Origin: Styela clava
Taxonomy: Eukaryota > Chordata > Ascidiacea > Stolidobranchia > Styelidae
DNA: 64,000 nt
Direction: 5' to 3'
NCBI RefSeq assembly: GCF_964204865.1
Contig: NC_135254.1
Span: forward strand, 15,567,001 to 15,631,000
Under the pieces are notes generated by a model, which was not told the origin of the DNA, searched no databases, and was given only the letters and a program-made list of their open reading frames with translations. Shown piece by piece: positions 1,049 through 63,770 of the stretch. Position 1 is the stretch's first letter. Each line of letters begins with the position of its first letter. Position numbers and translations under genes: made by a program.

Positions 1049-1283
1049 GCCTTGAGTGCCTGATAATTTTCGTGAAAACAAGTTTCTTTTTATGGCCATA
1101 AAAACTATGATTTAATAATGTTCGAAAGTTTGACCCACGTGACATTGTAATAATATTTTGATACATTATAATCGAGCCATGTTGCAGTGTTGCTCTGCAT
1201 TTGCCAAAACATCATTTGGCCATGGTATTCATTTTAATTCAGTATTTTATAACTATGCATTTACAGGACTATATTATTTAATA

Positions 1284-15957: not shown

Positions 15958-16493
15958 AGAAAGCCTAATCATGTGACGAACCATGGCCTCTCATCAGGTT
16001 ACCAGTTTATTTAGGATATGGGACTAGCCAGTTATTTATTTTCAGGAGCATGAACTGGAATGATGGAGAAAGTCATAAGGAAGGGTTACGATATCTGGAA
16101 ATACAAAATCCCTGACAAAACTTTAATGAGCCATGTTGACCAATTATGCAACCAAAACACTTATACTGTACAATATTATGGTATAAATTCACAATGTATT
16201 CAAAGGCACAAGCTATTGTCGCTTTCTTGTGAGAATAGAATATATACAGAACAAAACGAAAGGCCAAAAATTGTTGCCTAATCATTAGCCCGAGTGACTA
16301 AACCCTAGCACAAAATAAAGTAAGTTACTGGTAGTGCAGCCAAGATGCAGATCACAAAATGATGGCAATTCAGGTCATCTATTATCTGAATGCGAAGCAA
16401 TCAGTGTTGCACAAAAATGTTTGCATGTGACATATCTCTGATAAAATAGCAATATCTGAATACTCGAAGATTTGTAGGATTGTAGCAGGAATT
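15958..16493. other. Spacer between the two zinc-finger units
   Basis: It starts with a SINE fragment (about 15950-16060) on the - strand and continues as unique AT-rich sequence. No supported gene is present. Confidence 0.5.
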
Positions 16494-18020: not shown

Positions 18021-18039
18021 AAAGAAAAGTTGATAAGAC

Positions 18040-33800: not shown

Positions 33801-34189
33801 CCAGATGAAGTCAAAAGACCAGTTCCCAACCACGAATGAAGAAAATCATAAAAGAATGTTTTTTCGGTGTGATCAGAGGAATGAAGGATGCTTTCAGCGG
33901 CTTTTGCTCCACCGACAATAAGAACTGGAACTGTTCCGACCCAAGCCAGTCCGACATCACTTGTTTCAGGTGCAGGACTTTCAATCATTAGTTTAAGTAC
34001 GTTTTCGTAGTACTTGTCAGGTGTTCCAGTCAAAATCAAAGCATGTCCCAAGAACGGGATCGCCCTGACTCCCGGGCCTGGCAGTCCCTTGAAGATGTCC
34101 CATTTACGTTTATATTCTTTAAGAAAAAATAGTAGCTTAATTCCTGCCCAAACCGCCGCTAAAGATATGATTGTGAACAAAACTTCCAT
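30886..34189 (-). CDS. Cytochrome P450, CYP4 family (CYP4V-like), gene B
   Basis: The six exons in transcript order are 33750-34189, 33037-33243, 32440-32717, 31858-32092, 31566-31658 and 30886-31147, totalling 1515 nt or 504 residues. Exon 4 has no internal Met and is easy to miss, but it translates cleanly from '[14 protein letters not shown]' to 'GRVTTRDC'. Features are an N-terminal anchor (residues 3-23), the hinge [10 protein letters not shown], the I-helix [13 protein letters not shown] (Thr replaces the usual Val of EVDTF), the ExxR pair E367-R370 and the haem loop [14 protein letters not shown] with Cys447. The exon 1 donor is a weaker 'gtctgc'. The exon plan is identical to genes A and C, so the three arose by duplication. 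It probably oxidises fatty-acid-like or xenobiotic substrates in the ER; the true substrate is unknown. Confidence 0.95.
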
Positions 34190-35816
34190 GTTTTATTTTC
34201 AAGCGTAATACAGGTTAAAAATACTGCTGTAATAAATAATTCAAATTCGATTAATTTGCTAAACTAAGCAATAAATCATAGGGGGTACACAGCCGTGAAT
34301 TAAAATTTCTTCATCTTCTACAGTTTTCAAGATTAATTAATATCTGGAGTAAAAAATGTTTAAAACTAACAAAACCAAATCAGCGTTCAGGAATTAAGCA
34401 CACCGCGGCAAAATCCTGCTTATACTATACATTTCACTGATCATAACGAAATGGGAGTGCTTATGAAGGACATTTTTTTAACATAGCACTGTGTGAACTC
34501 GCTGTGGTTGAATGATTATCGGAATTCCTATAATAAATCTACCTTCAAGTCAAACAAAAAACAATTACCACAGACTAGCGCAAACAATGAGAGAGGTTGA
34601 TAGCATAAAAGTCGAAATAATACTGTTAACATTTTATGCATAAGTCATCAGGCTAAACCAGTAGTTCCCAGTTATCTTGTCCGCGAGACATGTGTTATTG
34701 TTTTTATTTATTTTATTATTTTGCTGCCAGCGTGACCACTTGGTTACAGAGAATACGAAGTCACATTGCTTAATTAATCGATTTGTCTTCCGTCGTTAAA
34801 TTGGGTGTTGAAAGAAGAAATGCAATTGATTTCGCAGTGGTGTCTTTGCCCAGTAATCACACTTCAGGATCCGATTGTTGAGAAAGGTTTTTAACAATTC
34901 TCACAAGTCTTCAAAATCTGAAAATCTATTTATATGTGTTCAAGTCCGCGTCGCCTCCGTATATAAGTGAATAATGCTGCATTCTATTATTGCAGTATTA
35001 TTGTAATTAGATACCAAAACAACACGACAGCAAATCCAAGCAAAAAAAATGGGATTTTGAGACCTCATACATGTTTTTCCCATACTACTTTCATTCTTTG
35101 TTTTACTTTCGAATTTCGTAGTGAAGAAATCTGTAACGATAATACCGTTAGACTACAAATCAAGAAAAATGAAACGCGTTGTCGAACGCGTCCAAATATA
35201 TTCAAATTTTGGGCAAATATTCACCGTCTATGTGAATGCAAATGCTTATATTTGAGTTCAATAACCCGATATTCTTGCTCTCTTTTTCAAATCTGCAACG
35301 AAACATTAGGTTATAATATTACTCAAACACAGGTGTATTATCTGTTTCATTGATTTCTTATTTTGTTACTAGTCCTCGTCGTCATTTTATTTGATGTTAC
35401 CAGTTCACCAGGGTAGAGAGCTGGGAAACCCCAAGGCTAACAGTTGCATACAACAACGTCACACAACGCACGAAAAACTTGCAGACGATATATATACAAT
35501 TACAATATACATTTCTCATGAAGAATTGAATATAATCCTCTGATTTTTGAAATTATTGTACTTTTCTTATTGCCGGTCGCGATTTTACAAAATTTGGGGT
35601 CGCGCAAAAAAAGACTTTGTGAACCACTGATCTATAGCATACCTTCAATGGCACATTTAACGAACTCTCTTACACGTACAGTGAGTATAATTGTTCAGGC
35701 CTTGGTTGTCTTTTTCAATCGCAAATGGATTTGTCATGTTCAATTTCGCCGCGGCTGAAGTTACACAAGGGCGCTGTGTGGTGATGGGGCGTAAAATTTC
35801 TTTTCAATAAATTCTG
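34190..35816. other. Intergenic region upstream of P450 gene B
   Basis: There are hAT-like ends at 34659 ('cagtagttcccagtt') and at about 35613-35629 ('ctttgtgaaccactg') but no matching target duplication. I see no gene; the 128-residue frame at 34967-35353 has no recognisable domain. Confidence 0.4.
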
Positions 35817-36374
35817 TTGTTGGCTTTTAGCATCTCATCTTTTTTAATGCAAGTCATGGTCCTTGAACTGTTCTTCCATCCATTGCAGCAACACCAAAGA
35901 AACATCGGCGATGCAGCTGCAAGTTTGACGTCTATTCGAAAAAGGACTTGCTATGCAACTTTAGTATGCTGCGTCAGCAATACTGGGACTTCCGTTATAT
36001 TAGCTATGGTCGGCATTATTGTATGGGAATATACAAGTATGGAAACTGCCTATGCCAAACATGACATAAATATACACATACCTAAATCGGATTCTATCCA
36101 CCAGAAAAATCTCTTTTTCGCTTCCAGTCTGAAGTTCAATATCGCAAACTTCCTCTTAACCCTGCTGAAACGCTTAAAAACAGTGAAAAACCGTCAAAAA
36201 ACACCAATAACCCTGCTGAAACGCTTAAAAACAGTGAAAAACCGTCAAAAAACACCAATAACCCTGCTAAAACGCTTAAAAACAGTGAAAAACCGTCAAA
36301 AAACACCAATAACCCCGCTAAAACGCTTAAAGGCGTTTCGAATTCCAACTACATTAAAATTGTTCTTGTCTTAA
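35817..36374 (+). other. Unrecognised open frame with a membrane segment and 51-bp repeats
   Basis: An open frame of 185 codons. Residues 26-65 include 'NIGDAAASLTSIRKRT' followed by a hydrophobic run 'TSVILAMVGIIVW', which looks like an extracellular or loop segment plus a membrane helix. A possible splice acceptor 'ccattgcag' (35879-35887) and donor 'caagtatgg' (about 36030) suggest that only about 140 bp may be an exon, either of an unknown membrane protein or of a paralogue of the lectin-like gene, which shares 'GDAAA'. The C-terminal third is a 51-bp minisatellite reading as repeats of LLKRLKTVKNRQKTPIT. Coding status is doubtful. Confidence 0.25.
36160..36331. repeat. 51-bp minisatellite, about 3.4 copies
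   Basis: The unit starts 'ccctgctgaaacgctt' and repeats at 36160, 36211, 36262 and 36313 with very few changes. The length is a multiple of three, so it stays open in frame. Confidence 0.9.
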
Positions 36375-42684: not shown

Positions 42685-42811
42685 CTGATGTCGTATCATT
42701 TTATGGAAAATTTCCAAAATAATTGTTTTTTAAAAACAGCCATAGAAATTGAAATATATGTTGCTTTATTTATCACAGATTTATTCCTAAAAGCCACCGA
42801 TAGTATGTAAG

Positions 42812-45783
42812 ATGGGGGTGGCAGTATACTCTGTATATCTACTTGTAGCATACATTTCATTCCAAATATTTTTTGTTTTAAAAACGTTTGCAAAGAATTG
42901 GATCACTTTCAAAGATGTGCCCGGCCCCCCGCATCGACCATTACCTCTCGTAGGACACTTACTCAGAGAACGCGTAGGAGTAGAGGAATTTTACACACGT
43001 ATCACTACCGGCTTGAATGAAATGGCGATTTCAAGTGAGCGTGAAGTGGCGTGCGTCTTTCTAGGCCCGATACCGGTTTTGTTCATTTGCGGTCCAAATG
43101 CAGCAGAAGTAATTCTCCGGAGCTCCAAACACAACGAAAAAGGCTTCATGTATCATTTTTTAACTGAATGGCTAGGAACGGGTTTGTTGACATCAAAAGG
43201 TGACAAATGGAAGGAAAGGAGGAGATTACTCACGCCGACATTCCATTTCAGGTTTGGAATATTCTGTACCATAGTATATATGTGTACATGTACTACGTCT
43301 ACTGATAACTAATAACTAATGAAACTTTTATTATTTTTTTCACAAGAATAGTCTTGGAACGGTCTTGATAAGCAATGAGATACAATTTGATTTATTATTG
43401 CTTCCTTCTTTAACAAGCAACCAACACTAATAATTTGTTTGTTTATCTGATTTTTGTTTATATATTTGATAATATAGATTTTGATCATTTTCAACCAAAT
43501 TCCCGCATTTTTCAGCATACTCCAAGATTTTCTTGAGGTCATGAACGAACAATCAAGCGTTTTTACAAGAAATTTGGAAAAATTTGCTGAAACTGGAGAA
43601 CGTTTGGATATTTTTAATCCAGTTACGTTGTGCGCACTTGATATCATATGCGAAACAGCAATGGGAAAGAAGATTAATGCCCAGGATAATTCAGAGTCGG
43701 ACTATGTCACTGCTTTGTACACGTAAGTATAGGCGTCGACAAATTGTGCATGGAAAAATATACCATTTCTTATTTTTTGTCATTTAATATGTGTACTACA
43801 AGTTTTATTGTGCCTTCATACATCGCTGTGGATTTTCTCCTCACGTTACTGAGAATCTATATGTTTGCTGCTATATATAAGATGAGGTCCCAAATTTTAT
43901 CATCCTTGACTTGAAAAAATAAACTATAACTGCTCTTTAGGATATCAGAGATGTTATTCAATCGAATACGGTCTCCATGGTTATGGCCGGATTTTACGTT
44001 CTCTCTCACAAGTAGTGGTAAACGGTATTACAAATGCTTGAATACTTTACATGGCTTCACAAAATCTGTCATAAAAGATCGAATGCAAAATTTTAATCTC
44101 GATGAAGATGCAACCTCTGATGTTAAAAAACGACCAGCGTTTCTCGACCTTCTGCTTAGAGTTTCGGAAAACGGAAAAGTACTTTCATTTGAAGATATTC
44201 AAGAAGAAGTGGATACATTTATGTTTGAAGGTTTCGCCTATTGCTATTAATTATATCCATAATCGATTATAAACGATTTGCAGCAGCAGTTATGCACATT
44301 GATTCTTTTATGAACAAAATACCAGTAATACATTATCATGCATGAGTATTTTATTCAAAGCATAGTCAAAAAGTCAAAAAAAATGTGAACAAAATCACTG
44401 AAACAAAAGTAACGAACAACCACTGTAAAAGATTTAAAAGTCCACAAACTCAAAGGAATTCAATTCGAAATGGCGCAAGTTTTCGGAAACAAAATCATGG
44501 CATAAATACCAAATTTATGAAAGGTAACTTCTACAACAAATGGCAGAGAAGTTGTGATCACGGCGTTTTAAGATTTATTGTGGACAGTTTGTACAGTATA
44601 GACGCCACTTGTAATATTGATAGAAATTAGCAATATTTCTTCGTTAGGAAAGATACCGGACTGTATGTATTCGATTGTTGTAAATACTATAATATGACAG
44701 TAAACAACATTTCTACTTGTCGATCCATCCCCTTCGCAGGCCACGACACAACTGCTGCAGCAATGTCATGGGCAATCTTTTTAATTGGATCTCACCCGGA
44801 AGTTCAAGTAAGAATTCAGGAAGAATTGGATGAAGTATTAGGACAAGATATGAACAGAAATATAACCATGGATGATCTTCGAAAGATGGATTATCTGGAA
44901 CTTGTTGTGAAGGAATGTTTGAGGGTTATACCATCTGTTCCACTCATCGGAAGAGTTACAAGCTGTGAATGCGTGTAAGAAATTCTACTTGCACCCTTTC
45001 TCTCCTTTTCTATCTGACGCTCACAAACTTTTTTTCTTACTCCTCTTTCAATTTTCATTCCAAGTCATCTGTCACCATTCAAGAATTATTTTTATATATT
45101 TATTGCGATCTTCTTCATGCGAATAACATACAATATGACATACGTAATCATTCTACTTTTTATGATAAAACAGAATCGATGGACACAAAATACCCGAAGG
45201 CTCGGAATGCTTGCTATTTCCTCAACTTGTGAACAACTTTCCAAAATTTTGGCCGGATGCTGAAAGGTAATGCTTCGATTGGCGTGTTGCTTCATATCAT
45301 TGTTACATGTCGTGTATTACTTAAATTTCATTCAGCCTTTTCCCAATTTTAATCAGTTTTGAGGAAGTAGTTTTTTTCATATTCAGAAATAAGAAATGTC
45401 GTTTGTATGTAATGTCTTAAGGTCGCCCAAGACAAATACGTTCATACCAAATCTATCGCTTCATATCTTTAAAAAAATTTCAACATAGCAAAACTAAATT
45501 GATGAACAATATTTAACTCTTCTCTAGTTTTAACCCGGAAAGATTCACTGTTGAAAATAGTGTTGGAAGACATCCATACGCATATCTTCCATTTTCTGCT
45601 GGTCCTCGAAATTGCATTGGTCAGAGATTTGCGATGATGGAGGAGAAAGTTATGTTGGCACATTTGTTCAGAAAATTTTCTGTCGAAGCGTGCGATAAAC
45701 GTGAAGATATAAAACTACTTGGAGATCTTATTCTACGACCTGGAGACGGTATCAACGTAAAACTGAAGAAAAGATTCGAATAA
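42812..45783 (+). CDS. Cytochrome P450, CYP4 family (CYP4V-like), gene C
   Basis: The six exons are 42812-43251, 43516-43722, 43941-44230, 44740-44974, 45174-45266 and 45528-45783, totalling 1521 nt or 506 residues. It shows the N-terminal anchor (residues 3-23), the hinge [10 protein letters not shown], helix C '[15 protein letters not shown]', the CYP4 I-helix signature [13 protein letters not shown] split by intron 3, the ExxR pair E371-R374 and the haem loop [14 protein letters not shown] with Cys451. Exon lengths 2, 4 and 5 (207, 235, 93) are the same as in genes A and B, although this gene lies on the other strand. A poly(A) signal AATAAA is at 45930-45935. No lesion is seen, so the gene is probably active. 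Confidence 0.95.
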
Positions 45784-47028: not shown

Positions 47029-49119
47029 GAACTACCTCAACTTCAATGTCAACCTTTTACTGAAACTAATTATAAGTCGAAGACAAACTTCCAAGAAATA
47101 TAATTAATACTTTCGCCGTGTAACACATAATAATTATGCCACTTTCAGGTGACTAATCAATTCTACTTTCACACAATAGAAGCATTAAAAGGTATTTTCA
47201 GCAAAACGAGAGAAAATAAATTGCATTTTTTCGTAATCTCTGACTTGCGTTACATGGGAACGAAATCCTACTTGATCCTAGCTTGCATTCATAAATTTAG
47301 GAAGTAAAGTGAAAAAATTTGCATTTGTATTATGTTAATTTTGGCTGTTATTGTTTTTAGTGGAAATTTATAATTTATTCATGGGTTTGTATGTTTCTAC
47401 GAGGTTTGGGCTTTTGTGTATTCTGATGCTTTGCTTGAGTTGAACCAGTATAGTTACATTAAACTGCCTAAATGATTGTCTGTTCAGAAAAAGTTTCCTA
47501 ATTGCACAGAATGTAAGTACTAGTAAAAATATGCATTTCCCGTTTCTTATTTTATGTACTGTTCGCAGTTATTAGTCCTTTTAATTTAATTGCGACGTAC
47601 ATGAAAATCGTACTACCACTCTAAAAATTATTTTATAAAATGAGCAAACAAAAAAAAAAAACTAAGAAAAACAGGATTCAATGGAGTTAGACTTAATTCG
47701 CATCCGATTTTCAAAACCTGATTTAAATTGAGTCACAGAAACTGGCTTACTAGAAACGACACGTGGCTGATACTTGACTATGGGATGATACTTGATGATC
47801 ATTAGTGGCAGAATTAGATATAACAATAATCGATAATAATATGATAAACGATATTCGGAATAATTGGTCTGTCGTGACAATTTGATCTTGAAATAAACAT
47901 ACATAGCCTGATTTACTCCGATAAGTGCATTCATTAAGTATTACATACAATATACGTCAAATCAATTTATCAATCAGGAACCAGAATTAAATACGTTCAT
48001 TGGAGATTCTTAAAAAAACCATTTGCGAATTAAGAAGCTTTAATTAACAATCTTAATACAACTAACTCATTCAATATGATTATGGGTTTAAACAAGTGTT
48101 TTCTAAATACTTACAGTATACTATTAAAAAATTTTGATTAGGGAATTGACGTAAAACCAAATACGTTAAAATGAAATTAATTGAATTAAAACGGATTGAA
48201 CAAAAGGAAACAAACGATCATTATTTTGTTTAAATATAATCAACTTAAATTTATTATTTTCACGATACAATCAAAATTTGAATTTGTAAGAACCAGGTCA
48301 AGCTTCATTCGAAAACTTATTCTTTTTAATCCCATAATCTCAGATGTTCTCAATTAATTGATAGCATTTATCACTTTGAGCAGCTTGAGTAATTCGCCAT
48401 ACCAAAATGGATGACGTATTTCACACTCAATCCCAAGACAAGATTACACGGCAATTAGTAATCCTGACCCGACACAAAACTCGCAGATAAATTTACTGTT
48501 ATCTGCGGTATAAAACTCAATGCATCAAGAGAGCGATGCTCAAATATATGGACACGAAAGCCAAAACGAAGTAATACAGGTATCCAATCTGTCACAGCAG
48601 ACTACATGTATACCGCAGGCTTCACGACTAACGCGAACGTCATTGCACACAAAAAATGAATTCCATAGAGCCCATAAAATTTAAAATAAGTGAAACTAAT
48701 AGTCTTCCATCGAAAAATACTATCTTTATCCACTGAATATTTCAAAGCAGTTAATAAGAAATTCGATTTTCTTTCATAACAATAAGAACAAAAATACCAA
48801 CAACAACATAATAACAAAACGATTCATAGGTCCATTTCGTGTCCAATAATAAATTTCTAATCGTTGTTAAGGGTGACAATATTAAATCGAACAATGGAAG
48901 TAATCACTTTCTAATAAGATTTATCGAAACGTATAATTTGGTTAAAGATCTCTTTAATTTGACTCAATTGACGAATGAAGTTCCACATTATTATTTCTTT
49001 CACGTGCGCGAAATTTTTTATATTTTTTCTCTTCTATATTCCTGAATAGCTTATAAGCACGCGAATTTTACCCGTGAGATTATTTTGAATAACTTCATTG
49101 ACGAAATCATAGAAACAAA
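47029..49119. other. 5' region of gene A1
   Basis: Non-coding as far as I can see. The frame at 48839-49045 (68 codons) is partly kept in unit 2 (57066-57281) but differs in length and start, so it is probably leader or intron. The - strand frame at 47662-47934 is not preserved in unit 2. Confidence 0.45.
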
Positions 49120-49638
49120 ATGGCTATTCTGCAGATAGTTGAATTTGAAAGCAAAAATATTGAAAGGAATATTAAAACGTATAGCAAACTGGAAAAAATC
49201 TATCGATTCAGGAACAACACAAAATTACGTAGACAGAAACACTTAACACTGAAAAACTGTACGGTTTCGAAAAAAACTGAACCAACATCAACGCAGAACT
49301 ATAATAAGATTGCAGCATCTAAAAGAAATAAAGGATTTACCAACAATCTTTGTTCAATCGTGGAATCCGATGAAACAGAGGAGTCAACAAATAATACAAC
49401 AAATGCAAGCTTTTGGATTGGAATTCAAAAAGATTTTGTACAAAAACAAACATTTTATAAGAATTTTAAAATGGATTTGGGAAGAAAACTGAACAATTTA
49501 TTGCCTACAATCGACGAGAACGATGAAATAGTCTACAACAAGGATTTAAAAGCTAAGCAGCATCTTTCTTTAAACTGTAAACCAAGAGAACTTTTCCACG
49601 CAAAGCATGAAAATACAACAATCATATCTTGCTGCTGA
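49120..49638 (+). CDS. Unrecognised small basic protein, family A (A1)
   Basis: A single-exon open frame of 172 residues. I do not recognise the family. It is very rich in Lys, Asn and Thr, has no signal peptide or membrane helix, and is probably an intracellular protein. The C-terminal half carries a motif shared with the B genes: FTNxLC, then W-x-x-I, F-x-K-N, LxRKxNNxLPxIDExDEIxYN, NCKPR and KHE, ending in ISCC. The start at 49120 (MAILQIVEF) aligns with the B start MAVLQIIEY. A poly(A) signal AATAAA lies at 49723-49728. Its unit-2 counterpart is broken at 57260-57776. Motif-sharing paralogues at the same relative places argue that this is a real gene. Function is unknown. Confidence 0.75.
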   Translation: MAILQIVEFESKNIERNIKTYSKLEKIYRFRNNTKLRRQKHLTLKNCTVSKKTEPTSTQNYNKIAASKRNKGFTNNLCSIVESDETEESTNNTTNASFWIGIQKDFVQKQTFYKNFKMDLGRKLNNLLPTIDENDEIVYNKDLKAKQHLSLNCKPRELFHAKHENTTIISCC

Positions 49639-51918
49639 TTGTGAAACCATTAGGCTCGTCATTATATTTTTTTCTAGCTGTTATTGAATTATATTTATCG
49701 ACATTGTGTGCAATATTTTTCAAATAAATTTAATTTTTACCATAGGTTACGTTGAATGAAATTTGTAGAGTAGAAAGGTCAAGATTAAATATCTTAAGAG
49801 TAGGGATGGGTAGTGGAAAGTGAACTGAAAATTCGAGATCGATTCTTTCATAAAGAAAACTCACTAGCATATAGACTACTCAAGAGTAAACACTGTTAAC
49901 GCAATGATCGATCTGTCCTGGTTTGATTAGGAAATGAATCTGAACGAATTTTAGAATTCAAATTTTTTTGGGTAGTGACTGATTCAGCCTCGAAGGTTGA
50001 ATTGTTATAACAACCGAGTTGGATGATCTATAAACTCGGACAAATTACGCTGTAACCAAGTAAGATAGTATCGAGCATATATAGGGCTATAGGAATTGGG
50101 CCTAATTGTATGCAAATTTAGTTGTAGGCAAAAAAGTATGAATAGTAACAATCGCGGAGTTACAAGTGACAATTGGTGGGTTGTACCCAGTGGTAGGATT
50201 CATGGGGTTCTCTCAAACCCGTTAACAGAATGGCACAATACTTAGCAACCCTGTTTTTGTTTTGTTTCAAACGTTAGACGACCACAGCAAATTGGTAACG
50301 TACCTACGAGACGACTGCAGCGTTGTACTGTATTTGCTGCTTTGCGTAAGTTATGTACTAAATTTATGTAAAGCATGTCATGTTAATGAGCTTATTTGTG
50401 ACATTAAATAGAAATTGTTACGTACAGTTACAGATATATAAATTTGACATAACTTTTCTGAAATGAGTTAAGTGTCGTTAGTTAGTTCGACACAACAGAG
50501 AACCTGTTATTTAAAATGTTGAATCTATCACTGTCGTCTGTATTTATATATAGGCTCATCTTAGAGGTGGTAACATAAAACTTAGAACATAGCAACTGAC
50601 GCATTACTTAACGAAACAAGTCGAAACTGCCATAGAAACACCTCGACGTGGCGAATTCCACGAAACAGAAGATTTTGTGACAACCTTTGCTATGCATAAA
50701 TGGAATCTGTCTGATTAGATGGTGGACGTACCAAACTCTTTCCGATAAGAACCAAGCCAAATGCCACGTTTATTATGATATCTACAAATGAGATAGGTAA
50801 ATTCAAACGGTGTAAGTATTTTTAGAATATCAACTAGTATAATATTTTTCGAATTGGAATTTCAAGTATATTTGAAGTCACGCTGTAGAATTATTTATTT
50901 AAGGTGTTTCACCTCTTTCTTCAACGCAAGAGAAATATCTGTCATTTTACTACAAAAAAGCATAAAAGATAATTGCGAATCTATGTCGTTTTAGGTAAAA
51001 AAAAAATTTCCGTTCTAGGTAATTTTACCGATATAAATTTAATAATCTTACTATTCAAAAGCAAAAGTGCTAAGCCTGAGAGAATAAACAAATTGCCAAA
51101 TTGACAAATAAACATCAACCTTATATATTATAAAACATGAACTTAAAGACGAATGTTCTTGCAGCTGGATCATATTTGGAAAGATAAATATAAATATAAT
51201 TGATTGTAATCGTCTTTATCAAAAGCCGGCATCCACGAACTATACGTCAACGTTAACCACAATCATCAATTACTACTATTTCTTGTACAGAACAAATGAT
51301 GCGTCGAATTAAAAGTTATTAGTTCATGAACTTAATAGTAGCATGTAACACTTAAACATTATGTACGCGTAAACAATGAAGATACAAAAGTTCATTTACA
51401 TGGAACAAGTTACAGATGTTAAAGCATGATTGGCGCTACAAAAATAGAAAAAATATGTCTTTGATTCAATGTATTGCTCTTTTATTTATTCTTCGAAGAA
51501 GTTCAATCTTTTTGATCACTTCCGACTTCCTGCTTATTTTGAAGCTCGGGTCAAATTTATGCTTATATGCTGAAACAAGATTCGGTTTTAAATGGAGTTC
51601 ACTGTATAATATATTTCGTGTCGTCTGTCGGTATCGTTGTTATATGGCACACGTTGCGGGTATGCCGCATATGATGTATTTATTATTATAAACACTGATT
51701 TCCAACTTCAGCCTGTAATTAGAAAAAAAATACGGAAATGGTCGGACTGCGATTAAAATTATGAAGGTCTAACGGATCCCAAACAACTATAATTATCACC
51801 GTAGTTCCGTTTTCCTGTTAAATTATGGCTTTGTTAATCAATTGTGAACTAAATAAAATAATAAACACACCGGTAGCTGGAGGAAACGCTTTCGGATAAT
51901 AATAAACAATCTAGCACA
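49639..51918. other. Spacer between A1 and B1, first part
   Basis: No supported gene. The open frame at 51416-51691 is not preserved in unit 2. 51170-51900 aligns closely with 59350-60100. Confidence 0.45.
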
Positions 51919-52230
51919 CTGGTTCTCAACCAGTGGGCCATGGCTCACTGCTCGGCCATAGATTCTTTTCAAGTGGGCCACAAGCCTATTAAAAATTACT
52001 ACGGTTATTGAAAAGTTTGGTTTCATTTGTGTCAGTATAGTCAAATTTTTAGGGTGGTAGCAATGAATGATGCTGCTGCTTTTCATTCTAATTTTAAAAT
52101 GAAAGTATTTATTTTTGCCAAAAAGTCTCGTTTTTCTTGTAGTTTTTTCCTTCCATGAGAAAGATAGTGGGCCACAGAATTTTCATGCAACGAAAGTGGG
52201 CCACGAAAGAAAAAAGGTTGAGAACCACTG
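51919..52230. mobile_element. hAT element inserted after the segmental duplication
   Basis: The ends are 'ctggttctcaaccagtgggc' and 'ggttgagaaccactg', and the interior is rich in 'gtgggcca'. Flanks ctagcaca (51911-51918) and atagcaca (52231-52238) match at seven of eight bases. Unit 2 has the empty site 'caatctagcacaatggctg' at about 60100. Confidence 0.9.
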
Positions 52231-53595
52231 ATAGCACAATTGCTGTCTACATCGCATGGCTGGGTATTTCGAATCGAAAAGTAAATTATTCGAATCAATT
52301 CATACGACAATTTTGAATCGCCGCGATCTTGTCTTTTTTGACCGCCAAAGACGACGAGTTTCTTCATATTTCGCTATTGATGGAACATGTTTCTTACTGT
52401 GTACGACAACTCCGCGAACTAACTGAGTGATGGATTCTGTGTTTTCATTAATTTACCGTAGGAGGCCCGATTGCAATAAAAAAGTCTCATACAGTTACGT
52501 CGTTGTTTTAATTTAAATATCTTCCAAGTACATTCGATTCGAATAAATGTTCGATTTGATTCTGAAATCATTCGAAAAGTGTCCTAATGATTGTAACCCA
52601 GCATGCTTATAATTTTTTTTTTATCCCGAATGGGCTATTTTTTATCGCCAGGTTTTCTCCATCGGAAGTAATTTTGTCGTTCTTGGGGAGAAATAATTTT
52701 GTATTCGATGTGGTATTACTAATATTTAGTACTTTATTATTACTATAATACTTTTTAGTATTACATTTATGCACACATTAAAAGCTATTTGAACTGTACA
52801 AAAGAGAGAGTGCGACTTGCGCATATCACAAGCTAATGGTCCATTGAAGATTGAACAAAAAAAGTAGTTTTAATGCGTAGTGAAGATGGAATAAAAAAAT
52901 CCGAAATACACAAAAGTACGAATTTAACGGAAAGAACCACTCATAACAGAAGCCTACCATTTCAGCAGAGTGTAAAAAGTTGGGTAGACCCCAGCAGTCC
53001 AAGGATATTTCGGTTCTCCATGGCAGTTCCCTACACTTTCTTTAGACTTTAGAGATTTCGCACCGAGTTTTGCTTAAAGAGGTATCAGTCAAAAATAACG
53101 CTATTTTACATGTTAACGTTTGGGAATGAGGGTGAAATGTTTTTTCTTTTTCATGGGGTGAGCTATATTGAGCCTGCTGTCAAAAAGTAATGATGACATC
53201 ATTCAACTGTCAATTCAAAAAATAGTGGTAATTTATCAGTGCTTATGTGATTTTTAAGTCGTGTTTCATGATTGGTTTATACTTAATCAAAATATTTACC
53301 TATTTATTTGTTTGTCTTCACTACAATACGAAGCTGCTATATTTTTAATTATAGTGTTTGGAATCTACAATTAGAAATTAATTGAAAGGAAGTTAAACTC
53401 TTTTAAATAGGCGTACTGAAACTAATAATTTTGTTTAATATTAAGTTTATTTAAGTGGTACGTACTTTGCCTCAGATGTTTCCGTGGGTAGGTTGATTTA
53501 TTACATTTTATTTTCTCTTCGCAGAATATAAGTGCGCGAATGTTGTCCGTGATCTCATTTTACGCAACACTTTGTCACAAGTCGTAGCATAGAAA
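52231..53595. other. Spacer upstream of B1
   Basis: No gene. It aligns with 60110-61478. A pyrimidine-rich splice acceptor 'ttttctcttcgcag' ends at 53524, 71 bases before the B1 ATG. Confidence 0.5.
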
Positions 53596-54126
53596 ATGGC
53601 TGTTCTACAAATAATTGAATATTCCAGCGAAGATATTGTCGAGAAAACTAATAAAAATTGCAATAGTAATCGAATTGCGGAAAGAATACATTGCTTTAAC
53701 AAAGAAATCAATTCTGGTCGGAAGCATATCAACGAACTAAAGAATTTCATGGCTGTGGAGAAATTCGAATCGAAGTCATTGGAAAGGCAAAAGCGAGTTT
53801 TTTCAACAAAATCAAAAAGAAAATTCACTAACCTATGCGCAATCAAGGAATCGGAAGAAACAGTGGAAATAATAAACAAGACATCGAATTTATGGATTAA
53901 AATTGAAATGAATCAAAGAAATTTCGCGGAAAGACAACTATTTTCAAAAAATAATAAAACAAATCTGCGACGAAAAATGAACAATATGTTACCGGTAATT
54001 GACGAAAAAGACGAAATAATTTATAATACGGAATTAAACGCAAAACGGTATCGTTCTATAAACTGCAAACCACGAAATCATTTCCGGGAGAAACATGAAT
54101 TTAAATTATTTGTATCTTGCCATTAA
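53596..54126 (+). CDS. Unrecognised small basic protein, family B (B1)
   Basis: An open frame of 176 residues with the start MAVLQIIEYSS. I do not recognise it. It is strongly basic, has no signal peptide or membrane helix, and carries several Cys (NCNS, HCF, NLCA, NCKPR and the penultimate SCH). The last 113 residues differ from B2 at only 12 positions, with a fully identical 53-residue run at B1 residues 115-167 that includes LRRKMNNMLPVIDEKDEIIY. It is clearly homologous to A1 in this half. An upstream splice acceptor at 53511-53524 gives a 71-nt leader in the last exon. A poly(A) signal AATAAA is at 54188-54193. Function is unknown. Confidence 0.75.
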   Translation: MAVLQIIEYSSEDIVEKTNKNCNSNRIAERIHCFNKEINSGRKHINELKNFMAVEKFESKSLERQKRVFSTKSKRKFTNLCAIKESEETVEIINKTSNLWIKIEMNQRNFAERQLFSKNNKTNLRRKMNNMLPVIDEKDEIIYNTELNAKRYRSINCKPRNHFREKHEFKLFVSCH

Positions 54127-56620
54127 TTTTTTTACATTACCGTCGAAATATATTTATAGTATTACCTTAAAGTGCAATATGTATGAAAATAAATTTATTT
54201 ATATAAAATGTTGTTGAATTCTTCAGGAGGTAACAAAGGGGTAGATACGACAACTGAGTGCTTTTTCGAGCCTTGTTTTTCTCAGTCACTTCCGTATAAC
54301 ATAGGGTAATCAACACGATGTCAAAGGGGGAATAGGCAATTGGAATTTTAGCTGCCGTTTAGATATTTCGTTTGCTCAGATAGATTTTCAGACGTAGGAT
54401 AATGAATGGCAAGTGTATGTTGGGCATGCACCATCAGTCGAGTCCTTGAAATATACTTGAGATTACAAACTGAAATAAAATATGTAAATACTGTTTTATC
54501 GATTTTGAAAAAATAAACTGAATAAAATTTTCTATCAAGGCATTTCCAGAATAAACTCGAGGTTTATTTTATCATTTCTTCAAAACCAAATTTCCTGAAC
54601 TAATTATATGGCACTAACTTAAGACGAGTTTGAAACAGCTCAATCTATTTTATTTGATTTAATAGTTTAAATTATATACAACGAAAATTTCAAAGTTTAT
54701 ATATCGTCGAAATGAGTAAATAAAATTTCGACCCAATTTTGAATCCGCAAACCGAAATTTAAAAACAAAGGAGAAGCTGTAGATTGTTAAGAAGAAGCAT
54801 ACCTTACTTATGTTTAAACGTAATTTTTGGGATATTAAGTGGACTACTAACATTGCGCTGGTCGTATTCGTACTCCCCTAATAGCCGGGAGTGGCAGTCC
54901 TAGTGGAATGACAAAACTACATCAACCTGACTTTCACTCATTTACTGAAACTAATCATAAGTCGAAGACAAACTTCCAGGAAATATACTTAATACTTTCG
55001 TCGTGTAACACATAATAATTATGCCACTTTCAGGTGATTATTTAAAGCTACTCTCACACAATATAACTATTAAAAGGTATTTTCAACAAAACGAGAGAAA
55101 TAAAAATATTGCATTCTCTCGTAATTTTTGGCTTGCGTTGCGGGGATAACTCTTGCAAGACACTAGCTTGCATTTCTTTCATAAATTTATCAAGGAAAAC
55201 GAAAAACTTTGCATTTGTATTATGTTAATTTTGGCTGTTATCGTTTTTGGTGGATTTTTATAATTCATCCATGGGGTTTTATGTTCCTACAAGGTTTGGG
55301 CATTGGTGCATTCTCATGCTTTGCCGAAGTTGAACTGGTAGTTACTTAAAATGCTAATTAAATGATTGTCTGTTGAAAAATAGTTTCTTAATTGCACAGA
55401 ATGTAAATAGTAGTGAAAATATGCATTTTCCGTTATTTATTCTATGTGCTGTGTTGCACAGATATTAGTCGTTTAATTTAATTGAGATGTGTATGAAGAC
55501 TTAATCTCCAACTTATTTTTAAAACTCGATTTGAATTGAGTCCCAGAAGCTGACTTTACTGGAAATGACACGGGGCTGATACTTCTCATTGATGGATTTG
55601 TACTTGACTAGTCAAGTGAATCTTTAGTAGCAGAATTTGATATAATAATATTAGATAATAAGATGATAAACGATATACGGCATAATTGGTGTGTCATGAC
55701 AATTTAACTTCAAAATAAACACAGCGAGCCTGATTTTCTCCGATAAATGCATTCATTAAATATTACATACGATAGACGTCAAATCAATTTATCAATTAAG
55801 AACTAGAATTAAATACGTTATTTGGAGATACTTAATAACATTTGCGAATTAAGAAGCTTTAATTAACAATCTTAATACAACTACCGGTAACTCATTCCAT
55901 ATGATTATGGGTTTAAACAAGTGTTTTCTAAATACTTACAGTACTATTAAAATTTTTTGATTAAAGAATTGACGTAATACCAAATACGTTAAAATGAAAT
56001 TAGTTGTATTAAAACGGATTGAACAAAAGGATCTAAATGATCATTATTTTGTTTAAATATAATCAACTCAAATTTATTATTTTCACGATATATTCAAAAT
56101 TGTAAGAAACAGGTCAGGCATTACTTAAAAAATGATTCCCTTTAAGCCCATAATCTCAACTCAATTAATTAATAGCATTTATCACTTTGAGCACTTTGAG
56201 CTACCAAAATTGATGACGTATTTCACACTCAATCCCAGACAAGATTACACGGCAATTATTAACTACTCGGCATAGAACTTGCAAGTAAATGTGCTGTTGT
56301 CTATAAAGTGAAACTCATTGCAATAAGAGAGCGTTGCTCAAATATATGACACATTAGCCAAAACGAAGTAATATAAGGTATACAATCTGTCACTGTATGC
56401 TAGCGCTGTCTTCACAACTAACGCGAATGTCATCGCACACAATAAACGAAAAAACAAATCTCATGGAGCCCATAAAATATTTTGAGGTAAGGAATAGCTT
56501 CTAGCCAAAATTAAATGAAAATGAAATTTCTTCTTTAAATGAAATTTCAAAGCAATTGGTCCCGAAGTTAATAAGAAATGCTAATTTTTCATAAAAATAA
56601 GAACAAAAATACCAACAACA
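54127..56620. other. Junction of units 1 and 2 and 5' part of unit 2
   Basis: No gene. The join of the two tandem units is at about 54890-54912. 54912-56620 aligns with 47029-48815. Confidence 0.5.
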
Positions 56621-56623
56621 ACA

Positions 56624-56965
56624 TAACGGGAATATCGGTCAGTATCCGAAGACTTATCGATCGAAAGTTAGGGGATCCCCAAAACAGCGCTCTTACCTCA
56701 TAGTGACACTCTATGTCCTATCACTAATTAATTAATAAATCGCTAATTATACGACATAATCTGCCCAAAATCAATAGGTCCGAGATATGATGAATGCACA
56801 TGCAAAATCTGGAGCAGATTCAATCCCGCTTTCATGAGATATCGCGTGCATCTAACAGACATACACACAACCAGACAGACAGACAGACAAATACCTATCA
56901 CCATACTCACCGATTAAAATCGATAAGTAACGATTAAAATCGATAAGTAATAACAAAATAATCTA
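56624..56965. mobile_element. Probable LINE/SINE 3' fragment inserted in unit 2
   Basis: This sequence is absent from the matching place in unit 1 (about 48815). It contains 'gagatatcgcgtgcatctaa', then 'cagacagacagacagac', typical of 3' ends of some non-LTR elements. It ends with a short tandem tail 'cgattaaaatcgataagta', repeated twice. Confidence 0.6.
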
Positions 56966-57259
56966 TGGGTAAATTTCTAATCGTTGTTAGGGATGTCAAT
57001 ATTAGATCGAACAATGAAAGTGGTCACTTTCTAAGTTTCTAATAAGATTTATCGAAACGTATAATTTGGTTAAAGATCTCTTTAATTTGCCTCAAATGAC
57101 GAATGAAGTTTCACATTATCATTTCTCTCACGTGTGCGAAAATTTTTATATTTTCCTCTTCTATATTCCTGAATATAAGAAGAATATTCCTTATAAGCAC
57201 GATAATTCTACTTATGGCATTATTTTGAATAACTTCATTGGCGAAATCATAGGAACAAA

Positions 57260-57776
57260 ATGGCTATTCTGCAGAAGTTGAATTTGAAAGCAAAAATGAT
57301 GAAACAAATGATGAAACAAATAGAAAACTAGAAAAAATCTATCGATTCAGGAACAACACAAAATTACGTAGACAGAAGGACTTAACACTGAAAAACTGTA
57401 CGGTTGCGAAAAAACTGAGCCAACATCAATAAATTACTAAAATATAATTGCTGCATCTAGAATAAAGAATGGATTTACCAACAATCTGTGTTCAATTGTG
57501 GAATCCGATAAAACAGAAGAATCAACAAATCAAACAACATATGGAAGCTTTTGGATTGAAATTCAAAAAGATTTTGTACAAAAACAAACATTTTGGAAAA
57601 ATTTTAGAATAGATTTGCGAAGAAAAATGAACAATTTATTGCCTACAAATGACGAAAAAAATGAAATAATCTACAACAAGTGATTAAAAGCTAAGCAGCA
57701 TCGTTCTCTCAACTGTAAACCAAGACATCTTTTCCACGCAAAACATGGAACTGCAACAGTCATATCTTGCTGCTGA
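57260..57776 (+). pseudogene. Broken family A copy (A2)
   Basis: It aligns with A1 from the start codon to the stop. Two bases are lost after 'ATGGCTATTCTGCAG', shifting the frame within six codons. Further small indels follow in the first 200 bases. A change near 57680 puts TGA after 'tacaacaag'. The stretch at 57498-57680 remains open and similar to A1, and the final 'tcttgctgctga' is retained. It is a decayed paralogue, not an assembly duplicate. Confidence 0.8.
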
Positions 57777-58599
57777 TTGTGAAACCATTCAGCTCGTCAT
57801 TATATTATTTAAAACTTTTATTGAAATATATTTATTAACATTGCGTGCAAGATTTTTTAAATAAAGTTAATTTGCTATTAATCATATTTTACGTTAAATG
57901 ATTTTGTAGAGTAGAAAGGTCAAGATTACATTTCTTAAGAGTGGGATTGGGTGGCGAAAAGTGAGCTGAAAAATTTACCGACATCGATTCTTTGATACAG
58001 AAAACTCACTAGTTCATACTCAAAAGTAAACAATGTTAACGCAATGATTGATCTGTCTTCGTTTGGTTAATGTAGTGTAGGCCTGTAGGGCGTCGTGACT
58101 AAAAATTGGTCTGAACAAATGTTTTTTTTGGTTGTGACTCATTCAGACTCGAAGATTAAATTGTTACGATTTCCCACTTTTGCGTAAAGCTTAGCTACAT
58201 TTTATAAGCAGATTATGAATATGTATTGGTGAAGTTGACGCAAATATTCAGCTTAAAACCATGAGGTTTGTAACCACAACCTAAGATATTCTTATAAGCA
58301 GAAGGCATCTTGAAACGCTATCGCGCAGATGTACACAGAGCGTGCGACACCTGTGGTGATACAACGAGTTTTCGATGAAGTGGGATCTGAGGTATAACCA
58401 CCATTGACAGTTCCAATTAAACTTGTATATGTGTGAAATCACACTCAGCCAAGCTAAACGTAGGATTGTTGATATCTTTGGTTAAATATGGTATTCTTTA
58501 CATGAGTGGCTTGGTAATGGAAGGATTTCATGATGTGAAATTATTTCAGAGGAGCTCCGACGAACCCCTGATAAAGCTCTACCGAACCCAGGGGCAAAA
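57777..58599. other. 3' flank of the A2 pseudogene
   Basis: 57777-58160 aligns with 49639-50010; beyond this it diverges. No gene. The 89-codon frame at 58433 runs into the minisatellite and is not supported. Confidence 0.4.
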
Positions 58600-58920
58600 G
58601 TACGTGGGTGCAAATGTACGCAGGTGCAAATGTATTTTCTCGGCTGCAAATGTACGCGTTGCAAATGTCCGCGAGTGTCAATTTCCGTGGGTGAAAATTT
58701 AAGGGGGTGCAAATATACATGGGTGCAAATATCTATAGGTGCAAATGTTCATGGGTGCAAATGTTCATCTGCGCAATCTGTGTTGGTGCTAAAATCTGCT
58801 GGTGCAAATGTATCGGTGCAATTGTTCATGGGTGCAAATGTTCGTGGGTGCAAAAATATACAGATGCAATTATCCTGGGTGCAAATGTACGTGTACAATT
58901 GTACGTTGGTGCAAATATAT
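58600..58920. repeat. Degenerate 18-bp minisatellite
   Basis: Variants of 'gggtgcaaatgtncatgg' recur about every 18 bp. Because 18 is a multiple of three, several frames stay open and read as Cys-Lys-Cys or Gly-Ala-Asn-Val repeats. The array is absent from unit 1. Confidence 0.85.
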
Positions 58921-61478
58921 TGAAACCAGGAAAAGTATTTGTCATTTTACTGCAAAAAAAAAAAAAAAAGATTATTGCGAATATATGTCGTTTGAATATA
59001 TCACATATCGTGAAAAAATCTGCAAATCTTTTTTTTTTCATTTTAGGTAATATAACTGATATAAATTTATTAATTTCACTGTTTAAAAGCAAATTTGTTG
59101 TTTAAGCCTGAAAGAATAGAAAAATTACCTAATTTGTTTTGTCTGTTTTTTCACTATATCGTATTATTGGTTAGCAGGCAACCACATATGAATCTTCGCT
59201 TGGATTTATTTTGGAGAAACAATACACGCGACAAAAGATATTTCAAATATTATTTTGCTTATTATAAATTTTATTCTTTCAAAATGCGGTCCATTCTGAA
59301 ATCATAATCAAACTCATATATTATAAAACATGAACCCAAAGACAAATTTTCTGGATCGTATTTGGAAACATAAATAGAAATATAATTGATTGTAATCGTC
59401 TTTATCAAAAAGCCGGCATCCACGAACTATACGTCAACGTTAACCACAATCATCAATTACTACTATTTCTTGTACAGAACAAATGATGCGTCGAATTAAA
59501 AGTTAATAGTTCATGAACAATAAGAGCATGTAACCCTTAAACATAATGTACGCGTTAACAATGAAGATACAAAAGTTTTTTGACATAGAACAAGTTACAG
59601 ATGTTAAAGCATGATTGACGCTACAAAAATAGAAAAAAAAATGTCCTTAATTCAATGTAGCTCTTTTGTTTATTCTTCGACGATGTTCAACCTTTTTGAT
59701 CACTTCCGACTTACTGTTTATTTTGTACCTCGGGTGAAATTTATGCTTATAGGCTAAAACAAGATTCGGTTTTAAATGGAGTTCACTGTATAATATATAT
59801 ATTTCGTGTCGTCTGTCAGTATCTTCGTTATATGGCACACGTTGCGGGTATGCCGCATATGAGGTATTTATTATTATAAACACTGATTTCCGAACTCCAG
59901 CCTGTAATTAGAAGGAAAAATACGGAAATGGTCGGACTGCGATTAAAATTATAAAGGTCTAACGGATCCCAAACAACTATAATTATCACCGTAGTTCCGT
60001 TTTCCTGTTAAATTATGGCTTTCTTAATCAATTGTGAACTAAATAAAATAATAAACACACCGGCAGCTGGAGGAAACGCTTTCGGATAATAATAAACAAT
60101 CTAGCACAATGGCTGTCAACATCGCATGGCTGGGTATTTTGAATCGAAAAGTAAATTATTCGAGTCAATTCATACGACAGTTTTGAATCGCCGCCATCTT
60201 GTCTTTTTTGACCACCAAAGTTGACGAGTTTCTTCCTATTTCGCTATTGATGGAACATGTTTCTTACTGTGTACGACAACTCCGTGTACTAACTGAGTGA
60301 TGGATTCTATGTTTTCATTAATTTACCGTATGTGTCTGGAGGTCCCATTGCAATAAAAAAGTCCCATACAGACACGTCGTTGTATTAATTTAAATATCTT
60401 CCAAGTACATTCGATTCGAATAAATGTTCGATTTGATTCTGGAATCATTCGAAAATGTCCTAATATTTGTAACCATGCTTATAATTTTTTTTATCCCGAA
60501 TGGGCTATTTTTTATCGCCGGTTTTCTCCATCGAAAGTAATTTTGTCGTTCTTTGGGAGAAATTTTGCATTCGATGTGGTATTAATATTTAGTACTTTAT
60601 CATTACTATAATACTTTTTAGTATTACATTTATGCACACAGCTATTTGAACTGTACAAAAGCGGGAGTGCGACTTGCGCATATCACAAGCTAATCCATTA
60701 AATAGTGAACAAAAAAAGTAGTTTTAATGCGTAGTGAAGATGGAATAAAAAAATCCGAAATACGCAAATGTACGAATTTAACGGAAAGAACCACTCATAA
60801 CAGAAGCCTACCATTTCAGCAGAGTGTAAAAAGTTGGGTAGACCCCAGCAGTTCAAGGATATTTCGGTACTCCATGGCAGTTCCCTACACTTTCTACAGA
60901 CTTTAGAGGATTCGCACCGAGTTTTGCTTAAAGAGGTATCAGTCAAAAATACCGCTATTTTACATGTTAACGTGTGGGAATGAGGGTGAAATGTTTTTTC
61001 TTTTTCTTGGGGTGAGTTATATTGAAATTCTGAATTACAGTGATTCACATTGTCGATAGACTGCTGTCAAAAATTAATGATGACATCATTCAACTGTCAA
61101 TTCAAAAAATAGTGGTAATTTATCAGTGCCTATGTGATCATTTTTAAGTCGTGTTTCATGATTGGTTCATACTTAATCAAAATATTTACCTATTTATTTG
61201 TTTGACTTCACTACAATACGAAGCTGCTACGTTTTTAATTATAGTGTTTGGAATCAACAATTAGAAATTAATTGGAAGGAAGTTAAACTCTTTTAATCAG
61301 GCATACTGAAACTTATAATTTTGTTTAATACTATTTAAGTGCTAGCCCTTTGCTTCAGATGTTTCCATGAGTTAGTTGGTTTATCATATTTTATTTTCTC
61401 CTTTCAGAATATAAGCTCGCGAATGTTGTCCGTGAGCTCATTTTACGAAACACTTTGTCAAGAGACATAGCAGAGAAA
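58921..61478. other. Spacer upstream of B2
   Basis: It aligns with 50920-53595 of unit 1 minus the hAT element. A splice acceptor 'ttctcctttcag' ends at 61407, 71 bases before the B2 ATG. No supported gene. Confidence 0.5.
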
Positions 61479-62003
61479 ATGGCTGTTCTACAAATAATTG
61501 AATATTCCAGCAAAAATATTGTCGAGACAACTGATAAAAATTGCAATAGTAATCGAATTGTGGAGAGAATACATTGCTTGAACAAAAACTTAAATTCTAG
61601 TCGGAAGAACATCAACGAACTAAAGAATTTCACTCCTGTGGTAAAACCATCGTCAATGGCAAGGCAAAAGCGAGTTTTTTCAACAAAATCAAAAAGAAAA
61701 TTCACTAATCTATGCGCAGTCAAAGAATTGGAAGAAAAAGTGGAAACAACAAACAAATCATCGAATTTATGGATTAAAATTGAAATGAATCAAAGAAATT
61801 TCACGGAAAGACAAATATTTTCAAAAAATAATAAAACGAATCTGCGACGAAAAATGAACAATATGTTACCGGTAATTGACGAAAAAGACGAAATAATTTA
61901 CAATACGGAATTAAACGCAAAACGGTATCGTTCTATCAACTGCAAACCACGAAATCATTTCCGGGAGAAACATGGATTTAAATTTCTTGTATCTTGCTAT
62001 TAA
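61479..62003 (+). CDS. Unrecognised small basic protein, family B (B2)
   Basis: 174 residues. The start at 61479 is chosen because it aligns with B1 (MAVLQIIEYSS); an in-frame Met lies eight codons upstream. It has the same conserved C-terminal block as B1 and ends in VSCY where B1 ends in VSCH. The N-terminal 60 residues are more diverged and two residues shorter. Within the 53-codon block of identical protein I count three base differences from B1, all synonymous, which hints at selection on the protein. A poly(A) signal AATAAA lies at 62065-62070. Function is unknown. Confidence 0.75.
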   Translation: MAVLQIIEYSSKNIVETTDKNCNSNRIVERIHCLNKNLNSSRKNINELKNFTPVVKPSSMARQKRVFSTKSKRKFTNLCAVKELEEKVETTNKSSNLWIKIEMNQRNFTERQIFSKNNKTNLRRKMNNMLPVIDEKDEIIYNTELNAKRYRSINCKPRNHFREKHGFKFLVSCY

Positions 62004-63060
62004 TATTTTTACATTACCGTCGAAATATATTTATAATATTATCTTACAGTGCAATATGTATGAAAATAAATTTATTTATATAAAATGTTGTTGAATTCGT
62101 CAGGAGGTAACAAAGGGGGAGATACATCAAATGGGTATTTTTCGAGCATTGTTCTCCTCACTCGCTTCCGTAACATGGGGTAATCAACACGATGTCAAAG
62201 GGGGAATGGGCAATTGAAATTTTAGCTGCCGTTTAGATACTTTGTTTGCTCAGATAGATTTTCAGACGTAGGATAATGAAAGGCAAGTGTATGTTGGGCA
62301 TGCACCATCAGTCGAGCCCTTGAAATATACTTGAGAAAACACTCTGCTCATCAAAAGAAAAAATTCCAAACTAAAATAAAATATGTAAAAACTGTTTTAT
62401 CGATTTTGAAAAATAAACTAAATAAAATTTTCAATCAAGGCATTTCCAGAATAAACTCGACGTTTATTTTATCATTTTTTCAAAACCAAATTTCCTGAAC
62501 TAATTATATGGCACTAACTTAAGACGAGTTTGAAACAGCTCAATTTATTTTAATTGATTTGATAGTTTAAATTATATACAACAAAAATTTCAAAGTTTAT
62601 ATATCATTGAAATGGGTATGTAATTAAATAACCAATTGCTTCCGAGATGAAATGTCGACCCAATTTCAAATCCCGCAAACCGAAAATGTGAAATCATCGA
62701 AAAATCATTCAGGAAGCAAACCTTATGTTTAAATGTGGTGCTCAAAATATTAAGTCGACTACTAACATTACTCTTGTCGTATTTTCAAATTCGGCGGCGA
62801 AAAACTTGAAATCACGTAATCACACATCGGGCGTGTCAAAATTTAAATGAGGGTCAGTCAGAGTTTTAGATACCACACTAAAATAAGAAGAAAAGTTGCA
62901 AATGTTAATGTTTTTGAAGTCGAAACTTATATATATATATATATATGTATGCTTTAAAAAATATTAAAATGGTTGTTAGAAATTCAACTGTTCCGGAACA
63001 GGGACACAAAAATGAACTAGAGCTGCGTGCAGCTTTAACAGGCTTCCCGCGTAGAAAAAA
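62004..63060. other. 3' flank of B2 and end of the duplication
   Basis: It aligns with 54127-54890 up to about 62790, then becomes unique. A (TA)n run lies at 62931-62946. No gene. Confidence 0.45.
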
Positions 63061-63705
63061 ACTGAAGACGCGTTTTGCTCACTGGAGCGTGAAAGCGTGG
63101 TCAGTCATGCATAAAATTCGCAATTTATGATGGGGGACTTATTATCTGCATGTGATGTAAATTTCAAGTCTCTAAGTAGTGTCGTTCTCAAGAAGAAGAT
63201 GAAAATGTAAAATCCGATATTGCTTACTGGAGCGTATCGCCGAGGTCACTCATGCGTGTCCTTGACATATCGTATCCGGAACATGTCCATTAATCATTGT
63301 TATGAATTTCAACCCAATAGCATGTATTAATTTTGAGAAATCGCAAAAAAACTGAAAACGCGTTTTGTTCACTGGAGCGTGAAAGCGTGGTCACTCATGC
63401 ATAAAATTTGCAATTTATGATGGGGGACTCATTATCTGCATGTGATGTAAATTTCAAGTCTCTAAGTAGTGTCGTTCTCGAGAAGAAGATGAAAATGTAA
63501 AATCCTATATTGATCACTGGAGCGTATCGCCGAGGTCACTCATGCGTATCCTTGACATATCGTATCCGGAACATGTCCATTAATCATTGTTATGAATTTC
63601 AACCCAATAGCATGTATCAATTTTGAGAAATCGCAAAAAAACTGAAAACGCGTTTTGCTCACTGGAGCGTGAAAGCATGGTCAGTCATGCATAAAATTTG
63701 CGTTT
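63061..63705. repeat. 290-bp tandem repeat, about 2.2 copies
   Basis: 'actgaaaacgcgttttg' (with one variant base in the first copy) starts at 63061, 63351 and 63641. Each unit contains two 'cactggagcgt' motifs about 160 bp apart. The third copy is cut at about 63705. Confidence 0.9.
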
Positions 63706-63770
63706 TATTGCTAGCTGAGAACTTCTGCACATTTGAGGTGAATTTAAAGTTTGTAGGACCAATTTGAAAA

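Follow-up and report, generated by a model that had tools for sequence, protein, structure and literature searches.

Natural ligands of PP2A-B56 that carry the docking motif LxxIxE are mostly larger than the small tunicate proteins described below, and have other domains as well. In the available sections of a review (PMC10970375), docking to the regulatory subunit B56 follows the consensus [LMFI]xx[ILV]xE, in which the Glu is fixed. The accessible parts of that review and of a second report (PMC7108865) indicate that docking is stronger when P2 and P7–9 are acidic or phosphorylated and, for a subset of ligands, when a basic patch precedes the motif by no more than about 15 residues. Two other systems come close to the present one: a laboratory tetrameric LxxIxE peptide, which according to the available text inhibits PP2A-B56 by blocking its pocket (PMC11954910), and the parasite protein GRA18, for which the text at hand describes binding to B56 (PMC6214654). 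Here we analysed a 64,000-nucleotide window of the Styela clava genome (NCBI RefSeq assembly GCF_964204865.1, contig NC_135254.1, positions 15,567,001 to 15,631,000 of the forward strand; window positions are used below unless a contig is named), in which two adjacent units carry genes for small basic proteins termed A and B. On balance, we favour the explanation that these genes belong to a multicopy family of small basic, probably disordered PP2A-B56 ligands that would act via LxxIxE sites.

The first-pass annotation of this window had described A/B genes on a direct tandem duplication, and self-BLAST of the window, together with the open frames, confirmed this observation, including the coordinates, the gene order and the A and B patterns. 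The two units lie on the plus strand at 47030–54868 and 54915–62783, each about 7.85 kb long, and align collinearly in six pieces, of which five are 79–92% identical and the sixth, 208 bp long, is 69% identical. Unit 1 holds A1 (49120–49638, 172 aa, isoelectric point (pI) 9.5) and B1 (53596–54126, 176 aa, pI 9.7), and unit 2 holds B2 (61479–62003, 174 aa, pI 10.0, open within a frame listed from 61455). These three previously listed members are all intact single-exon open reading frames on the plus strand; a fourth member, A2 (57260–57776, plus strand), was missing from the list. A2 is a decayed copy of A1 with frame breaks, in-frame stops and a C-terminal site outside the motif, shares 87% DNA identity with A1, and sits at the position expected for A in unit 2. 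Protein identity was 44% between A1 and B1 versus 83% between B1 and B2, and A1 and B2 could also be aligned as DNA (64.6%, E 6e-16 in self-BLAST); therefore, the sequences record both an older split into A and B and a later duplication of the unit, as had been proposed. The unit duplication had been called recent, but a synonymous divergence (dS) of 0.116 between B1 and B2 shows that it is not very recent. Two tandem arrays were also observed in this part of the window, one of about 20 copies of 16 bp inside unit 2 (58594–58916) and the other of 2.3 copies of 290 bp at 63055–63708.

The family, which the first-pass annotation had described from two adjacent units, is not confined to them. Translated searches (tblastn) with A1, B1, E1 and D1 over the 376.6-Mb assembly, in which the window lies on contig C5, revealed four clusters that together hold at least 20 intact full-length copies: three at C5:15.6 Mb, two at C5:18.2 Mb, three on C8 and 12 on C16. 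The encoded proteins are 165–177 aa long with a pI of 8.9–10.4. The C5:18.22–18.24 Mb cluster comprises the intact copies D1 and D2 (L007 and L008) and D3 (L010), which is open and altered at both ends; the C8:19.45–19.54 Mb cluster comprises E1, E2 and L024, all intact, and L025 with one stop; and the C16:19.85–19.97 Mb cluster comprises the 12 intact full-length copies, one frame-broken copy and, on the opposite strand, several that have decayed. Left out of the 20 were D3, L025, the frame-broken L037 and L051, A2 and the decayed minus-strand copies of C16. These numbers are lower bounds, and divergent subfamilies may be missed because the genome was searched without a profile. On C16, the copies form a 125-kb array (C16:19849297–19974807) that mixes intact plus-strand copies with decayed ones on the minus strand, and their order suggests repeated block duplication.

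To describe what is conserved, column statistics, column shuffles and flank tests were applied to seven representatives of the 20 intact copies, B2 not being among them. The results showed 15 invariant columns among 135 gapless ones: five in the start MA[IV]LxI[IV]E; L, I and E plus two further E in the middle; N, L, I and E in the C-terminal part; and one Cys. Ten of the invariant columns lie outside the N-terminus; six of these correspond to L, I and E in two LxxIxE sites, and the post hoc hypergeometric probability that all six key positions fall among the 15 invariant columns is 6.7e-7. The x positions of the sites hold two to six different residues, the codons of the key positions vary synonymously in six of six cases, and two conserved windows of this kind arose in only seven of 200,000 column shuffles, again counted post hoc. 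Both the middle and the C-terminal site match the published consensus in all 20 intact copies. In A1, they read LCSIVE (49348–49365) and LPTIDE (49501–49518); in B1, LCAIKE (53833–53850, preceded by KSKRK) and LPVIDE (53989–54006, preceded by RRK); and in B2, the LxxVxE variant LCAVKE (61710–61727) and LPVIDE (61866–61883), all on the plus strand. The N-terminal block, on the same strand, might be a further weak site of LxxIxE type in A1 (ILQIVE, 49126–49143); it reads VLQIIE in B1 (53602–53619), with a V at P1 that is outside the published consensus, and likewise VLQIIE in B2 (61485–61502). The flanks of the two sites were also biased, with 25 acidic residues at P7–9 against 4.7 expected (P 0.00026, post hoc) and a net positive charge of 51 against 12.8 in the 15 residues upstream (P 0.033, post hoc). 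Across all 20 copies, two acidic residues at P7–9 follow the middle site and one or two follow the C-terminal site, and the 15 residues upstream contain four to six K/R at the middle site (20/20) and two to five at the C-terminal site. Taken as sequence features, the two sites are probable B56 docking sites. The annotation had instead emphasized a conserved C-terminal block. Family-wide conservation is in fact limited to short islands, two of them being the LxxIxE sites, rather than extending over the block as such, while its C[KR]P element was found in 19 of 20 copies (not in L038). The DEIxYN pattern held for A1, B1 and B2 and for none of the other full-length copies, and the penultimate Cys for six of the 20 (A1, B1, B2, D1, D2 and L038) and not for the remaining 14.

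Several observations weigh against this docking interpretation. P2 is never acidic (12 of the 20 middle sites have Ser there, and one of the 20 C-terminal sites has Thr); the C-terminal sites of the C8 and C16 copies have only one acidic residue at P7–9; in B2, which is outside the seven representatives, P4 of the middle site is Val rather than Ile, a change that the consensus allows; and D3 is open without the C-terminal site. The N-terminal block is equally conserved, yet only 14 of the 20 copies match the consensus there (four have V at P1 and two have D at P6). Its invariant Leu4 is unexplained, and this block may be something other than a B56 site. All P values are post hoc, since the motif was recognised after the conserved blocks had been viewed and that alignment already showed the flank charges, and shuffles of single proteins, carried out for six proteins of 21, were weak (P 0.006–0.11). 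The structure prediction proposed earlier for these proteins was run with AlphaFold on the three window sequences and gave a mean predicted local distance difference test score (pLDDT) of 41.8, with no residue at or above 70. The low score agrees with disorder, of which it is weak evidence because the alignment had only three rows. Furthermore, the tblastn link between the A/B/D copies and the C8/C16 copies was weak (E 0.8 with A1; E 1.6 and 8 with D1), and the C8 copies were absent from the B1 matches at E≤10. The kinship of the two groups is nevertheless supported by a profile comparison (hhalign probability 93, E 3e-7, residues 1–98), by the single BLASTP comparison of A1 with E1, whose alignment spans the middle and C-terminal sites (E 4e-4), and by a TATA/ATG layout common to both groups.

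These points bear on the explanation that the genes are a constrained family whose islands bind a partner other than B56, the fit to LxxIxE being coincidental. The conservation of the N-terminal block and of the C-terminal Cys block, both left unexplained by B56 docking, speaks for such a partner, as do the post hoc choice of the motif and the weak single-protein shuffles. Against it stand the L..I.E spacing kept at two homologous sites in 20/20 copies while the x positions are free, and the acidic and basic flanks, which are those published for B56 ligands. Moreover, to our knowledge none of the SUMO-interacting, clathrin box, LxCxE and PP1 RVxF motifs fits both sites. We therefore regard another partner as rather unlikely, while still deserving serious consideration.

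If the sites dock to B56, the receptor should be encoded in the same genome. B56 (PF01603) exons were found at three loci, C1:9.98 Mb, C4:17.1 Mb and C4:9.12 Mb. An exon of the C1 copy aligned with the solved B56 alpha (E 6e-48) and keeps its LHRxYGKFLGLR stretch, whose His-Arg we take to be H187 and R188 in the numbering of the report on the peptide contacts. H187 and R188 are given as docking-peptide contacts of B56 in the accessible part of that report (PMC7108865). The B56 gene at C1:9981726–9988785 (L056, L057, L062, L063, L065, L066 and L068) contains two long exons, some of its exons recur as a second set about 4.2 kb downstream, and it looks like a partly duplicated extra B56; the two C4 loci differ from it in that their matches are short exons. 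The repeated exon set at C1 is a possible sign of co-expansion with the family.

In the proposed mechanism, each LxxIxE site would dock in the conserved LxxIxE pocket of B56, and each family protein would act as a bivalent PP2A-B56 ligand, because it has two sites that fit the docking motif, or perhaps as a trivalent one if the N-terminal block takes part. We infer less firmly that the family may act by dose, since the proteins have no recognised domain and many genes with TATA promoters encode them. They may either compete with other B56 clients or bring PP2A-B56 to a partner that the conserved C-terminal Cys block would hold, and we give competitor and recruiter about equal weight. The resemblance of the C-terminal site of A1 to LIE1, an 80 nM docking peptide with which it is identical at P1–P4 and P6 according to the available text (PMC11954910), and the blocking of the pocket by the synthetic tetramer make a dose-dependent competitor a natural reading. 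A more specific version, in which lineage-specific, genome-encoded PP2A-B56 competitors acting by dose were quickly expanded and turned over, perhaps in the germ line, as for genes in meiotic conflict, is speculative and in our opinion doubtful; PP2A-B56 protects centromeric cohesion in meiosis, as stated in the accessible part of one report (PMC12357305).

Compared with the systems described at the outset, the family resembles natural LxxIxE ligands such as BubR1, RepoMan, KIF4A and AIM1, among others, for which the available sections mention acidic residues after the motif and, in a subset, a basic patch that precedes it by about 15 residues at most (PMC10970375, PMC7108865). It differs from them in that at least 20 genes encode proteins of about 170 residues, in which six of the 15 invariant columns belong to the two sites. 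It shares with the tetrameric inhibitor, as far as the published excerpt describes it (PMC11954910), the presence of several LxxIxE sites per chain, whereas that inhibitor is synthetic and has four sites, and the family proteins have two or three and would be inhibitory by inference only. GRA18, according to the available text (PMC6214654), is likewise a lineage-restricted protein with two LxxIxE motifs, which lie in a disordered region, and it binds B56; unlike the family, it is secreted by a parasite, has a mass of 70 kDa and engages further partners. What is new is a gene family unnamed in the libraries searched and a form of LxxIxE ligand that is small, multicopy, multi-site and probably disordered, while the predicted mode, LxxIxE docking to PP2A-B56, is already known. 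If the proposal is true, B56 docking sites make up most of what is conserved in a set of small proteins that arose in an animal lineage, and this lineage keeps at least 20 genes for them; the proteins would then be nature's equivalent of the multi-site inhibitor made in the laboratory and offer a direct means of studying PP2A-B56 titration in vivo. The case also illustrates a way of reading families that lack a Pfam model, namely from their invariant positions, which here spell a docking motif while the remainder drifts.

The pattern of substitution and the flanking signals make it nearly certain that A, B and the related copies form a genuine multicopy family of intronless coding genes. The ratio of nonsynonymous to synonymous divergence (dN/dS, Nei–Gojobori) ranged from 0.27 to 0.78 over 20 hand-picked, not exhaustive pairs, two of which include D3, with dS of 0.02–1.5; it was 0.35 for A1/B1, 0.31 for A1/D1 and 0.69 for B1/B2, indicating protein constraint that is real but loose. 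Chance open frames in duplicated non-coding DNA would agree with the close-copy ratios of up to 0.78 and with a few other short frames that are open in both units. Among the unit 1 frames of at least 45 aa other than A1 and B1, three short ones are open over all or nearly all of their length in unit 2, namely those at 52587 (plus strand, 53 aa), 52873 (plus strand, 59 aa) and 53508 (minus strand, antisense to B1, 80 aa); the frame at 52873, the only one of the three tested, showed no synonymous bias. In contrast, the A, B and D copies keep frame and start and change with a synonymous bias at 38–44% protein identity to B1 and dS above 1. In addition, a TATAA lies 61–75 bp upstream of the ATG in 20/20 intact copies, compared with 12.5% of 5,000 random 40-bp stretches of the region. 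Chance frames are thus strongly disfavoured and hardly credible. The TATA boxes of A1 (49052–49059), B1 (53527–53534) and B2 (61410–61417) on the plus strand are 68, 69 and 69 bp before the ATG, respectively. A poly(A) signal (A[AT]TAAA) occurs within 150 bp past the stop in 16 of 20 intact copies, including A1 (49723–49728), B1 (54188–54193) and B2 (62065–62070), all on the plus strand, and was not found within this distance in E1, E2, L027 and L038. On this layout, each copy would be transcribed as an intronless unit of about 0.6–0.7 kb.

The abundance of copies, some of them decayed, the lack of introns and the decayed minus-strand copies in the C16 array could also be understood if the genes encoded a transposon or virus protein, or a domesticated one, spread through element copying. 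We consider this quite improbable, given that the copies found lie in four local clusters with the TATA box and poly(A) signal frequencies stated above, that one peptide pattern gave 10 matches and no confirmed relative among the IMG/VR viral contigs, and that no Pfam match reached the cut-off. A match to a known transposon protein, which would have counted against the earlier annotation, was thus not found in Pfam or in the viral contigs. Its description of the family as unrecognised also held: Pfam returned no family at E≤1 for A1, B1, B2, E1, L026 and L038 and only matches below the cut-off for D1 and D2, so that none of the eight proteins scanned passed, and nothing credible was found in the PDB for B1. 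The CdaS_N match of residues 71–121 of D1 (E 0.005, 10 bits below the cut-off) and of D2 (E 0.011) was taken as chance, and so was the single PDB match of B1, the only member searched there (chain gp41-5, E 0.49). In the literature searched, whose coverage leaves out most subscription journals, we found neither a published account of the A/B family nor LxxIxE mentioned together with tunicate or ascidian.

No tRNA (ARAGORN) or Rfam match was detected anywhere in the window, and other protein-coding features were observed outside the two units. A 644-residue single frame at 1143–3077, with GN3L_Grn1 and MMR_HSR1 domains and no visible introns, is GNL3L-like. A tandem pair of C2H2 zinc-finger genes (14510–15963 and 16494–18024, 89% identical as DNA) contains 330-residue frames on the minus strand at 14743–15735 and 16793–17785. 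Frames resembling exons of several cytochrome P450 genes occupy 25841–34192 (minus strand) and 42791–45783 (plus strand), two of the frames being scanned and both matching Pfam p450, and 3.4 copies of a 51-bp tandem repeat lie at 36157–36331. Mitochondrial COX1 had no match in the assembly. Outside the window, a GH6 exon match of 270 bp, which by itself makes a tunicate host probable, was seen on C9, and a frame some 0.9 kb upstream of it is strongly hydrophobic; among animals, CesA/GH6 genes are reported from tunicates in the accessible text of two papers (PMC6523144, PMC7464555).

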